From: Desulfobacterales bacterium
GTDB taxonomy: Bacteria; Desulfobacterota; Desulfobacteria; Desulfobacterales; JAHDSC01
DNA: 33,273 nucleotides
Direction: 5' to 3'
NCBI GenBank assembly: GCA_016931455.1
Contig: JAFGES010000112.1
Coordinates: 1-33,273 of the forward strand
Shown here: piece by piece, positions 13,805 through 16,973 of the stretch
How the letters are laid out: every line of letters starts with the position of its first letter
Numbering within the stretch: the stretch's first letter is position 1
Translations under genes and position numbers: made by a program
Notes under the pieces: generated by a model
What the model saw: the letters and a program-made list of their open reading frames with translations, nothing else
Told to the model about the DNA's origin: nothing
The model's database searches: none

Positions 13805-13993
13805 TTATTTTGATTTCGCTAAGCATAAGGGGCGAAAAACGCATTCTTTCTGATCGCAATAACCATTTGCCGTACCAAAACAGTCAAAATTTCCCTCGGC
13901 CCTTTGAATTTCTCGGATCAAATCGACTTTTTTTTTCCCGAAGGAATTTATGCCAAGGTTTTTTGCCATTCGGCGAACCTCCGACATTTTCAT
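13805..13993 (-). CDS. small SAP/Rho-N-like protein with four-Cys C-terminus
   Basis: A 62-residue protein. The N-terminal half (about 1-33, VRRMAKNLGI then KKKVDLIREIQRAEG) resembles the helix-extended-helix SAP or Rho_N nucleic-acid-binding fold. The C-terminal half holds C38, C46, C51 and C57, in the pattern C-x7-C-x4-C-x5-C, suggesting a small metal or Fe-S site. I recall similar short proteins in Desulfobacterota genomes annotated as SAP domain-containing. An AAGGAG lies seven bases before the ATG. The protein at 15713-15988 repeats the same core (LIR-x-IQRAEGN-x-DCF and the same Cys spacing). A role in DNA or RNA binding is inference; partner unknown. Confidence 0.7.
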   Translation of the reverse strand: MKMSEVRRMAKNLGINSFGKKKVDLIREIQRAEGNFDCFGTANGYCDQKECVFRPLCLAKSK

Positions 13994-14085: not shown

Positions 14086-14502
14086 TTATGAACCCTGAGT
14101 ATAAGGTTGCATATAATATCTATTACTAATCGGGGCAAGAGGCAGCGTCGATCCCAAAATTTCGATTATTTTGCGCTTAAGCTTCTCGAAAGCAAAAAAG
14201 ATATTGATTACACTAACATCTTCAGGCAAATAACTCAAGTCATCCGGTAAGCTTTCATAAGCTGTGGTAAATAGAACGGGAATATTTGGAAACTTCTGTT
14301 TAATATCCAGAAATGTCTTCCAACTCATCCTTCCGTATAAATAAAGATCAAGCAATACCAAATTCGGAGGTGATTCGTTAAAGCATTCCCACATCAGTTC
14401 AACATTGCCGACACTGACAATTTCAAAGCCCTCATAGGTTAACACCTCTGAAAGAAGCTCACGGATATAGGGTTGATCGTTTAAAATTAAAATTTTTGCC
14501 AT
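14086..14502 (-). CDS. single-domain response-regulator receiver protein
   Basis: CheY-like receiver of 138 residues with no output domain. Beta-1 reads ILILNDQ, giving N8-D9 where most receivers have an acidic pair. The phosphoacceptor is D52 in LLDLYL, and the switch Thr is T79/T80 in VLFTTAY. The usual Lys of the beta-5 KPF motif is replaced: the aligned segment reads FFAF near 102-105. Start supported by GAGG eight bases upstream. One copy of a 64-base structured element lies 117 bases upstream of the start codon. No histidine kinase is encoded nearby. It may act by protein-protein contact with neighbouring small proteins; phosphorylation competence is uncertain given the missing Lys. Confidence 0.82.
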   Translation of the reverse strand: MAKILILNDQPYIRELLSEVLTYEGFEIVSVGNVELMWECFNESPPNLVLLDLYLYGRMSWKTFLDIKQKFPNIPVLFTTAYESLPDDLSYLPEDVSVINIFFAFEKLKRKIIEILGSTLPLAPISNRYYMQPYTQGS

Positions 14503-14933
14503 TTTATTTTCCTCTTCTCTATCATAGCAGATTCCGTACCTGATCGTTGGGGGTTACACGGCCTACTGATATTAAAAAGTCTGTCATTATTTGTATTACT
14601 ATTACAATTTTTCTTCTTATTGTCTATAAGGAGAAGGCGTTATTTTTATAGGCAAAACTCCCAAGCATCGGGAATTTATCCTGTTTTTATTCGTCAAAAA
14701 TTAAGAGGAATTTGTTATGTATCAATTATTTTTCATGTCCCTAATCCGGATAAACCGGAAAAGCTGAAAACTCAAGAGGGAAACATGTGGCATATAATAA
14801 ATAACTTAAATGTTAAGAGGATATATCTGTTTTTTATAAATTTTGACTATTTTTGTCATAGATTAACATATTTGTGTAATTTTTTAACCTAGGAATAAAA
14901 ATTGTATGATTAAAAAAAAGCCGAAAATCACAT
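14503..14933 (-). other. 431-base intergenic region holding structured element copy A
   Basis: Lies between the STAS-like gene and the receiver gene, both on the minus strand. It contains copy A of the 64-base element at 14620-14683, given separately. A small 5-bp hairpin (TCCGG 14745-14749 with CCGGA 14755-14759) is present without a following T-run. A 90-codon reading frame on the plus strand overlaps copy A and shows no recognisable protein features, so I treat the region as non-coding. Confidence 0.4.
14620..14683 (-). promoter_or_regulatory. 64-base conserved element, copy A
   Basis: Aligns without gaps to 16087-16150, with 44 of 64 bases identical by hand count. On the minus strand the order is AGGATAAA, then TTCCC - 7 bases - GGGAG, then CCTATAAAAAT, then TATAGACAA. 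AGG and CCT can pair outside TCCC/GGGA across an internal loop, and GGAG can instead pair with CTCC further downstream. It may be a promoter with a dyad operator (TATAAA as -10) or a structured RNA leader. It sits 117 bases upstream of the receiver gene start. Confidence 0.5.
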
Positions 14934-15224
14934 TTAGAAAGATATAGTTTTTTCAGGGACAATTTGGTTAGCGTGTTCACCCGTAAAGAGTATATTAAGA
15001 GGAAGGCCGTTTAAATTGGAAAGATTTTTCTTAAAAACATCTTGTCCAAAGGGAATTATATTTCCTATACAGCTGGTATGAATAATAACTCGATAAACAT
15101 TATTGCAGCTTTTTTTTAAAACATTAATCAATTCGCAAGCCGAAGAACCATCAAAATCACCCATCAGCTTTAGATGTAGATTATCATCATTACGATGCAT
15201 AAAAATTTTAAAATTTGCCGCCAT
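14934..15224 (-). CDS. STAS-like small protein
   Basis: A 96-residue protein resembling a STAS / anti-sigma-factor-antagonist domain. An N-terminal beta strand (LHLKLMGDFDGSSACELI at about 16-33) leads into a helix, then a second strand (YRVIIHTS) and helix, ending with a strand (LNILFTG). The DFDGSSA segment resembles the G-E-L-D loop of STAS proteins. The usual D-S-S/T-G phosphorylatable loop is not evident: the corresponding region reads CIGNIIPFG, so classical SpoIIAA-style phosphorylation is doubtful. It lies between the two receiver genes, on the same strand. I recall similar short proteins in Desulfobacterota. The fold assignment is moderate and the function unknown; a partner-switching role is inference from the fold and neighbours. 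Confidence 0.6.
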   Translation of the reverse strand: MAANFKIFMHRNDDNLHLKLMGDFDGSSACELINVLKKSCNNVYRVIIHTSCIGNIIPFGQDVFKKNLSNLNGLPLNILFTGEHANQIVPEKTISF

Positions 15225-15305
15225 TACCTAACCCCCTATTTTTCTATTAAAGTCAAATCGTTCAATTAAACAAGATGTACAGAAAAATGCCAAATCGTTT
15301 AAAGG

Positions 15306-15623
15306 TCATGAAACGCTTATTTTTTTACCCAATGCTGCGGTTACTGTTTGTTTTATTCGATATAATGCACTGACATTATTAATTATATAAACAAGAACCG
15401 GGAGATCCGGGCATTGTTTGTTAATATCCAAAAGAATCTTCCAACTTTCGTTTCCGTTTAGATAATGATCAATAAGAACTACATCGGGTTGCAAGTTTTT
15501 AAGCTGTTCCCACATATAAATTGTATTAACAACATGCCTGACCCTATACCCCTCAGTTGCCAACTCCATCAATAAAAGATCGGGAATATAAGGCCGATCA
15601 TCGACGATTAAGATTTTCGCCAT
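15306..15623 (-). CDS. truncated-type receiver (CheY-like) protein
   Basis: Receiver of 105 residues when started at the ATG at 15623, which has AAGGAG upstream; a reading frame extending to 15680 adds 19 non-conserved residues. D8-D9 (ILIVDD) and D52 (VLIDHYLNG) form a plausible acidic pocket. After beta-4 (LPVLVYI) the switch Thr is absent, and alpha-4/beta-5 with the KPF Lys is essentially missing. Compared with the neighbour at 14086-14502, about 20-30 residues are lost there while a C-terminal helix (QTVTAALGKK) remains. The two receivers share a common start (MAKIL, PYI, the M-W-E helix), so they are likely paralogues. It may be a pseudo-receiver or a protein docking module. Confidence 0.75.
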   Translation of the reverse strand: MAKILIVDDRPYIPDLLLMELATEGYRVRHVVNTIYMWEQLKNLQPDVVLIDHYLNGNESWKILLDINKQCPDLPVLVYIINNVSALYRIKQTVTAALGKKISVS

Positions 15624-15712
15624 TTTTTTCTCCTTAATCCCCCTTTCATTAGCCGGGATTAGGCAACATCTCATCCGCATGCAATTAAAATGCCATTTCT
15701 TTGGGGCATCAA

Positions 15713-15988
15713 TTACTTGCCCTCTATATTCGTGTTTTCAACGTTGCCGATACAATAAACATACCAAGCACACTCCGTCCTATCACAATATCCCTCTTTT
15801 CTCCGGAAACAGTCGATGTTACCTTCTGCTCGTTGAATACTTCTAATCAAGGCGGTTACATCTAAAAAATTTTCCTTTATATTTTTGTCTCCTTTGGGAA
15901 CAGACACTTTAGCGGTTTGATTTTCCATATTAAAATTTCCAGAAGGCTTGACGTTGTTTTGCTCTATATTCAGCATATCCTTAATCAT
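15713..15988 (-). CDS. small four-Cys protein, paralogue of the SAP-like protein
   Basis: A 91-residue protein whose second half (about 50-81) repeats the core of the 13805-13993 protein: ALIRSIQRAEGN, DCF, then the same C-x7-C-x4-C-x5-C spacing. The first 50 residues are Asn/Lys-rich and appear disordered; they replace the first SAP helix. The start is uncertain, since no strong ribosome-binding site precedes the ATG at 15988 and in-frame ATGs also occur at 15976 and 15928. It lies just upstream of the receiver gene at 15306-15623, mirroring the receiver/Cys-protein pairing on the other side of the STAS-like gene. Metal binding is inferred from the Cys spacing. Confidence 0.6.
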   Translation of the reverse strand: MIKDMLNIEQNNVKPSGNFNMENQTAKVSVPKGDKNIKENFLDVTALIRSIQRAEGNIDCFRRKEGYCDRTECAWYVYCIGNVENTNIEGK

Positions 15989-16086
15989 TATTTATTAGAC
16001 TCGAAATTTATCAATATTTGATCGTTTAATCATTTACGTTCATAAGATTTCATATTTCTTTTTAAAACTAATTTTTTTTTTTAAAT

Positions 16087-16150
16087 TTGTCTATAGGGGT
16101 AGGGATTCATTTTTATAGGTTCAATCCCTCTTAATTGGGATTTTATCCTA
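16087..16150 (-). promoter_or_regulatory. 64-base conserved element, copy B
   Basis: Second copy of the element at 14620-14683. On the minus strand it carries TAGG, then AATCCC - 8 bases - GGGATT (a perfect 6-bp stem), then CCTATAAAAAT, a second AATCCC, and CCTATAGACAA. The TAGG and CCTA flanks can pair outside the stem, and GGGATT can pair with either AATCCC, giving two mutually exclusive hairpins. It begins 34 bases past the stop of the 262-residue gene and ends 98 bases before the Cys-protein start at 15988. Regulatory role inferred from duplication and placement. Confidence 0.5.
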
Positions 16151-16184: not shown

Positions 16185-16973
16185 CTACGCCTTCTGCATT
16201 AAAACCGCTTCTTTTAAACGTTGAAAAACGGAGGGCCCCTCGGTAGGAGCGGTGTGTTTTCCGGATGCAATCAGATTTATGAATTCTATCTTCTCCTTAT
16301 CGAAGATTCCAACTTGGTCATCAATAAATTTGAGCGTATCGTTCATTAGATTGTAGATGACCATCGGGCCGTACAGGATTTCCCCATTTTCCTTTTTTGT
16401 TGAAGCCCCGATAATTTTGTGATTGGCTATCCTCAGGCTCTTCGGAGGTGAAGTATACTCGAGCAATTCTGCAAAAAGAGAAAGACATTCAAGAACGCCC
16501 TCGGTATTTTTTAACTCAAGAGACGTCCGCCCCTCATTTTCGATTGCATCGAGATCGGATTTTTTAAAGCTAAGGTCCAACATCTCAATGGCTTCTTTTT
16601 GAATATCCTTGACGGATTCTTGTTTTTTGCTGATCACGACATCGCTGTCACTTAATATTTTAATTGCATTTCGGATATTAATCATCTCTTTGATTGTCGG
16701 ACTTTTGCGTAAAACAACATCTTTAACCGACGTTCGGTAAATCGGCAGATCATTATCAAGAACCAGTATTTTGCCCATGTTTACATCACCGCTCAAAACA
16801 TAAATTTCAAGATCCCTTTCTTTTCGAATTTGAGCTGAACGCAATTCAAGCAGGCTCCGCATGCTTTCCTTGTCAACTTTTTGAATGCTGTCCGGAGGGC
16901 CGATAGAATCAATTACTTTTTTTGTTAAGTGGTTGATTTGTATCTTTTTTAAAAGATTTTCCTTAAATGACAT
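16185..16973 (-). CDS. conserved protein of unknown function
   Basis: A 262-residue, mostly helical, soluble-looking protein with no signal peptide or membrane segment. I recognise no domain. It is rich in charged residues, with Lys/Glu-rich helices at about 85-150 (KSPTIKEMINIRNAIKIL and the following segment) and a C-terminal helix. I have an impression of similar sequences in Desulfobacterota but cannot name a family. Start supported by AAGGGGG four bases before the ATG. It is divergent from citrate synthase, with the palindrome at 17052-17075 between them, and is the first of six minus-strand genes leading toward the glycogen operon. Function not assigned. Confidence 0.7.
   Translation of the reverse strand: MSFKENLLKKIQINHLTKKVIDSIGPPDSIQKVDKESMRSLLELRSAQIRKERDLEIYVLSGDVNMGKILVLDNDLPIYRTSVKDVVLRKSPTIKEMINIRNAIKILSDSDVVISKKQESVKDIQKEAIEMLDLSFKKSDLDAIENEGRTSLELKNTEGVLECLSLFAELLEYTSPPKSLRIANHKIIGASTKKENGEILYGPMVIYNLMNDTLKFIDDQVGIFDKEKIEFINLIASGKHTAPTEGPSVFQRLKEAVLMQKA

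Follow-up and report, generated by a model that had tools for sequence, protein, structure and literature searches.

Two similar elements precede small signaling genes

Two similar elements lie on the minus strand of the window (i.e., the whole stretch of 33,273 nucleotides of Desulfobacterales DNA that was analyzed), namely, element A at positions 14620 to 14683 and element B at positions 16087 to 16150. The gene behind A (14086 to 14502, minus strand) encodes a single-domain response regulator (receiver; Response_reg, 3.3e-11). It is followed in the same direction, and probably in the same operon, by a gene for a small Rho_N/SAP-like protein with the Cys motif CDQKECVFRPLC (13805 to 13993, minus strand; Rho_N at 0.0034, below the cutoff), similar proteins being first targets in other genomes. 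The first gene behind B (15713 to 15988, minus strand) encodes a small Cys protein (SIQRAEGNIDCF...CDRTECAWYVYC) that matched no Pfam or NCBIfam family and has homologs placed first behind elements at 8 loci in several genomes. Next come the genes of a receiver-domain protein (15306 to 15626, minus strand; Response_reg, 2.7e-8) and of a 96-aa protein (14934 to 15224, minus strand) that looks STAS-like by eye (GDFDGSSACEL), has no Pfam or NCBIfam match, and has homologs near elements in three other genomes (G057, G127, and G049). The STAS-like protein, the receiver, and the Cys protein are apparently encoded in one operon, possibly a partner-switching module.

The products of 15713 to 15988 and 13805 to 13993 represent a family of small Cys proteins (SIQRxEGNxDCF ... 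CDxxxCxWRxxC), sometimes with a Rho_N/SAP-like N terminus, which corresponds to no Pfam or NCBIfam family and recurs as the first element target in several genomes. Upstream of element B, the window also encodes a 262-aa protein (16185 to 16973, minus strand) that belongs to no Pfam or NCBIfam family; a homolog (266 aa, MSFKENLLxKIxI...) is encoded directly before an element in another genome (G013, locus L033).

An earlier sequence-only reading had described A and B as a duplication lying 117 and 98 b before the starts of 14086 to 14502 and 15713 to 15988, respectively. Both distances are correct, and the duplication is real: the ungapped alignment of A and B has 44 identities in 64 positions, versus a mean of 34.4 (standard deviation, 1.6) and a maximum of 40 for the top-scoring 64-mer pair when both intergenic regions were shuffled 300 times (first order). 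The pattern CCTATAAAAAT-N13-TATAGACAA occurs in the window only twice, at A and B (expected, 0.00). The GGGA and TCCC arms noted in the same reading are present in both copies; the stems drawn from them are not superposable in the ungapped alignment, the GGGA arms being one base off register between A and B.

The element family in related genomes

Searches were performed with a covariance model seeded with A and B (R1) and with a sequence-only model built from 39 aligned copies (R2). Further copies in related genomes, for which the sequence-only reading had suggested looking in this way, were found with R1 in 26 of the 58 genomes of the order, in addition to nine copies (E < 0.003) in the genome of origin. 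R2 detected 12 copies in this 3.4-Mb genome (E ≤ 5.7e-6), and it located the element in 28 of the 58 order genomes (E ≤ 1e-3) and in 46 of 345 genomes of the phylum (E ≤ 0.01), 17 of which fell below 1e-4. Element A scored 86.4 bits with R1 and had an E value of 5.5e-18 with R2 in its own genome; the corresponding values for B were 85.2 bits and 2.1e-15. With a weight matrix for the 43-bp core, A and B scored 50.5 and 48.4, versus a best score of 6.0 in 3 Mb of random sequence. More than 100 copies are present in relatives, i.e., Desulfobacterales and some other Desulfobacterota. A and B are thus two members of one family of cis-regulatory elements and not an isolated pair. The highest copy number among the order genomes examined was 24, in G057, which at 2.1 Mb is among the smaller genomes; the next highest numbers were 15 and 13.

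Putative operator boxes and promoter geometry

An information profile of 41 copies, in which position 0 is the last A of GACA, revealed a series of conserved blocks: GGGA-N5-TCCC at -61 to -49, GGGAnTTTTCCC at -41 to -30, CTATAAAAATGA at about -30 to -19, TTTCCCCTAT at -14 to -5, TAGACA or TGGACA at -5 to 0, and xATAxT at +18 to +23. In element A, the distal dyad AGGATAAATTCCC (consensus GGGATAAATTCCC) occupies 14670 to 14682 and the middle dyad GGGAGTTTTGCC, which includes the most conserved G pair, occupies 14651 to 14662 (both minus strand). The aligned copies show two GGGA-N4/5-TCCC dyads spaced about 20 bp apart. When the frequency matrix is compared with itself, a 22-bp direct repeat of TTTYCCCTATA stands out most, and the dyads are weaker; in A, the repeat spans 14624 to 14656 on the minus strand (TTTTGCCTATA at 14646 to 14656 and TTCTCCTTATA at 14624 to 14634). 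On the basis of the two dyads and this repeat, the boxes are predicted to be spaced by two helical turns and to share one face of the DNA.

The second copy of the repeat runs into the -35-like hexamer TAGACA/TGGACA (TAGACA at 14621 to 14626 in A and at 16088 to 16093 in B, both minus strand). TAT[A/G]GACA was found in 41 of 41 copies, an invariance that for GACA is partly by construction, as the collecting pattern demanded it. When matches to TATAAT were profiled along the copies, the peak fell at a spacer of 17 (mean of 3.20, versus a maximum of 2.83 in 500 shuffles), and the same spacer was recovered from 110 held-out elements that had not entered the matrix (2.95, versus a maximum of 2.50 in 300 shuffles). 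The -10-like hexamer of A at this position is AATAGT (14598 to 14603, minus strand); in B, the position reads TAGTTT (16065 to 16070, minus strand), a weak match. The TATAAA that the sequence-only reading had taken as the -10 is therefore probably not the -10: the best-conserved -10-like position in the 41 copies, xATAxT, lies 17 bp after TAGACA/TGGACA, and TATAAA itself belongs to the first half of the direct repeat. A sigma54-type -24/-12 spacing was rejected on inspection by eye.

From its architecture, we read the element as an upstream activator region of about 65 bp joined to a sigma70-type promoter, with putative operator boxes that lie upstream of the -35 and extend into it. Of the two options left by the sequence-only reading, that of a dyad operator in a shared promoter is in this respect supported by the tandem dyads, the -35/-10 geometry, and the copies in relatives. 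A different explanation for a multicopy, partly palindromic, intergenic sequence would be a mobile or structural repeat (REP-, MITE-, or terminator-like) without a regulatory role. Such repeats would hardly keep a fixed geometry to a -35/-10 pair and, usually, one orientation relative to the downstream genes. The copies also share little identity outside the boxes (the mean column identity of A and B is 74% over 184 columns), are conserved deeply across families, and recur before the same target families. A REP/MITE-type repeat was rejected on geometry and divergence, and we regard this explanation as scarcely credible.

Lack of a conserved RNA structure

The other option of the sequence-only reading was a structured RNA leader (i.e., a riboswitch or attenuator), in which the transcribed element would toggle its GGGA arm between two pairings and thereby control the downstream genes. 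Each copy can fold singly (minimum free energies of -20.3 and -15.6 kcal/mol for 101 nt), and alternative TCCC/GGGA pairings can indeed be drawn in each. However, the proposed stem was paired in 70.1% of the cells of an alignment of 39 distinct copies, versus 70.3% in shuffles; covariation over the 39 rows was not in excess, and RNAalifold predicted no pairs and no consensus structure for the aligned copies. The stems thus vary without compensation. The -10-like site at +18 to +23 after GACA also places the predicted transcription start downstream of the element. The pairings are explained by the repeated GGGA and TCCC half-sites that the element holds, and we consider an RNA leader very improbable.

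No Rfam 15 family matched at gathering cutoffs, and at a relaxed cutoff neither A nor B was matched on its own strand. Weak low-threshold Rfam matches elsewhere or on the opposite strand were attributed to chance. PreQ1-I, considered for its likeness to CCTATAAAAA, was rejected, with no Rfam match and no conserved stem.

Genes downstream of the elements

In the genome of origin, the genes behind elements encode a cold-shock protein (C56), two UspA proteins (C127), Hsp20 (C97), a formate dehydrogenase-type molybdopterin protein (C98), a HisKA_3-type kinase (C25), a DUF547 protein (C50), a repeat protein (C48:136531), and small unknown proteins, in addition to both window modules. The Usp (1.4e-28; C127) and HSP20 (2.5e-27; C97) domains are encoded directly behind their elements. 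Among relatives, the first gene recurrently encodes a receiver or response regulator (10) or the Cys protein SIQRxEGNxDCF...CDxxxCxW (8); Hsp20, CspA, and a protein of ~92 to 112 aa that is conserved but of unknown kind also recur. Genes were called by a simple longest-ORF rule, so that the counts are minimum values and some of the first ORFs are artifactual; many first ORFs have no recognized stress function. The placement before small receiver and Cys-protein genes, which the sequence-only reading had emphasized, thus holds for a subset of the copies and not for the family as a whole, whose targets range more widely (UspA, Hsp20, CspA, and others).

The frequent position of elements before stress genes points to an undescribed stress regulon, a function suggested by the target families. 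The conserved ~92- to 112-aa protein (SADLCATLFFRLxxKGFTSxQVERLVKDxYxIVKDGGxFTLExIN; no Pfam family) is encoded, in three genomes, behind elements oriented divergently to the regulator gene described below (L114, 1503, plus strand; L148, 1502, plus strand; L155, 1514, minus strand).

A candidate regulator linked to the element

The gene before the element repeatedly encodes a response regulator of ~225 aa (Response_reg plus GerE), itself preceded by a gene for a PAS-HisKA_3 kinase. The regulator of the genome of origin (G000:C50:7321-7995; Response_reg, 8.8e-32; GerE, 5.6e-25) is followed after 129 bp by an element and has a paralog that is 78% identical (C41:146-814). The sole kinase scanned with Pfam, from a relative (L220), contains PAS, HisKA_3, and HATPase_c domains. 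The closest solved structure to the regulator is NarL (1a04; E = 1.1e-33), closely followed by DevR (3c3w; E = 7.2e-32), which is level with VraR.

With close regulators defined at E ≤ 1e-78, a cutoff chosen after the score gap had been seen, 27 of the 58 order genomes have both element and regulator, 1 has the element only (G037), 1 has the regulator only (G033), and 29 have neither (P = 4e-14). Among the 345 phylum genomes, the counts were 12 with both, 5 with the element only, and 4 with the regulator only (P = 2e-15), or 8, 5, and 4, respectively, after removal of the genomes shared with the order set (P = 2e-10). The two are also physically linked: of 30 linked pairs, 23 have an element that starts 28 to 214 bp after the regulator stop codon on the same strand, whereas the element is upstream of the regulator in 4 pairs and divergent in 3.

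Close homologs of the regulator were found in named genomes of Desulfobacterales (Desulforapulum, Desulfoluna, Desulfosarcina, Desulfatitalea, Desulfosudis, and others). At 33 new loci around regulators of at least 58% identity, an element occurred within 3 kb in 27, on the regulator strand in 27 of 27; some of the named genomes had also served for training, and the loci shared for this reason were identified and excluded from the 33. Elements were found at 0 of 31 loci around homologs of 34 to 41% identity, nor was any found around homologs of 44 to 56% identity (Geobacter, Desulfuromonas, and others). Because elements surround homologs of at least 58% identity and are absent around those of 34 to 56%, the operator and this regulator clade go together. 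The cognate regulator is probably this NarL/LuxR-family response regulator with its PAS-HisKA_3 kinase.

Elements without a close regulator occur in G037, G346, G127, G215, G152, and G099, several of which are incomplete or contaminated, and regulators without an element occur in G033, G266, G283, and G328 and at a few named loci (L237, L238, and L244). The elements of G037, G346, and G127 are strong, and the missing regulator there may reflect assembly gaps or a replaced regulator.

These three genomes would also fit a scheme in which the operator-promoter is real but its cognate regulator is another protein (i.e., another transcription factor or an alternative sigma factor), with the NarL-type gene linked to the element as a member of the regulon. 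The same scheme could accommodate elements placed upstream of the regulator gene, as for autoregulation (G017, G014, and G021). It is at odds with the 23 of 30 linked pairs in which the element stands behind the regulator gene and drives the next gene, with the nearly one-to-one presence and absence across 58 genomes, and with a DNA-binding domain from a family that binds such dyads in DosR/DevR (PMC5069765). We therefore consider a different cognate regulator unlikely.

Proposed mechanism and implications

The reading that we prefer, and hold to be highly probable on these genomic grounds, is that A and B represent the operator-promoter of a stress regulon run by the NarL/LuxR-type regulator through the PAS-HisKA_3 kinase. 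The kinase would phosphorylate the response regulator (G000:C50:7321-7995 or its paralog, C41:146-814), dimers of which would bind the boxes cooperatively and, once bound, activate transcription from a weak -35. Activation rather than repression is what we infer from the position of the operator upstream of and overlapping the -35. The regulon would include UspA, Hsp20, cold-shock protein, and formate dehydrogenase together with signaling genes (the receiver, Cys-protein, and STAS-like modules).

Among the major sulfate reducers of marine sediments are the Desulfobacterales, most of which have not been cultured. To our knowledge, little is known about the control of stress and dormancy in this order. 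There may be, with about an even chance in our estimation, a general stress or dormancy response that is widespread in Desulfobacterales and some other Desulfobacterota, governed by one NarL-type two-component system acting on a long and highly conserved tandem operator-promoter, and functionally convergent with mycobacterial DosR. If so, UspA, Hsp20, cold-shock proteins, formate dehydrogenases, and the unannotated receiver, Cys-protein, and STAS-like modules would be coordinated together. A regulator-operator pair defined by sequence, combined with a precise model, would allow members of the regulon to be identified in any genome or metagenome; the model predicts that the Cys-protein, single-receiver, and STAS-like modules are unannotated members of the response. 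The pair also offers a direct test of a DosR-like program outside actinobacteria.

Comparison with known systems

We found no earlier description of the motif or of a DosR/NarL regulon of Desulfobacterota in the open-license literature, where the motif letters returned, among the matches listed, only unrelated primer-type sequences. A systematic in vitro map of response regulators and their targets, in which a few regulators of the LytR/NarL family are covered, exists for the sulfate reducer Desulfovibrio vulgaris (Rajeev et al. 2011, PMC3333781); keyword matches in the text of that paper included no corresponding motif or regulon.

NarX-NarL/NarP of enterobacteria shares the Response_reg plus GerE architecture, and NarL (1a04) is the best solved relative of the regulator. 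NarL binds several upstream targets, e.g., at the ogt promoter (PMC7419079). Unlike in that system, no nitrate-respiration target set was recognized among the genes considered here, and the operator and array architectures differ.

The closest resemblance is to the DosR/DevR (DevRS-DosT) dormancy regulon of Mycobacterium and to OsdR of Streptomyces, which likewise combine a NarL-family response regulator with palindromic GGG...CCC boxes. DosR/DevR binds cooperatively to two or more closely packed boxes, the proximal one overlapping the -35 (PMC3029386), and the dyads described here at -61 to -49 and -41 to -30, with a repeat ending in TAGACA, are arranged in the same manner. Universal stress proteins and heat shock proteins are among the DosR/OsdR targets (PMC5069765); the UspA and Hsp20 targets here parallel the universal stress and alpha-crystallin-type heat shock targets of DosR/DevR. 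The boxes themselves differ. The OsdR palindrome AGGGCCGATCGGCCCT, stated to conform to the Mycobacterium tuberculosis consensus (PMC5069765), has only the GGG...CCC frame in common with GGGATAAATTCCC and GGGAnTTTTCCC, which have an AT-rich center, and the Desulfobacterota element has the 22-bp direct repeat TTTYCCCTATA in contrast to that palindrome. The DosR/DevR signal is hypoxia, NO, or redox state, sensed by heme kinases. Set further against DosR/DevR are the kinase beside the regulator, which in the example tested (L220) combines PAS with HisKA_3, and the anaerobic Desulfobacterota host; by solved-structure matches, the regulator is about equally near NarL, VraR, and DevR. Because the box differs, the kinship to DevR is, by these matches, no closer than that to NarL or VraR, and both the signal and the binding are what we infer, we do not file the system as a DosR regulon, but by analogy it would work like one.
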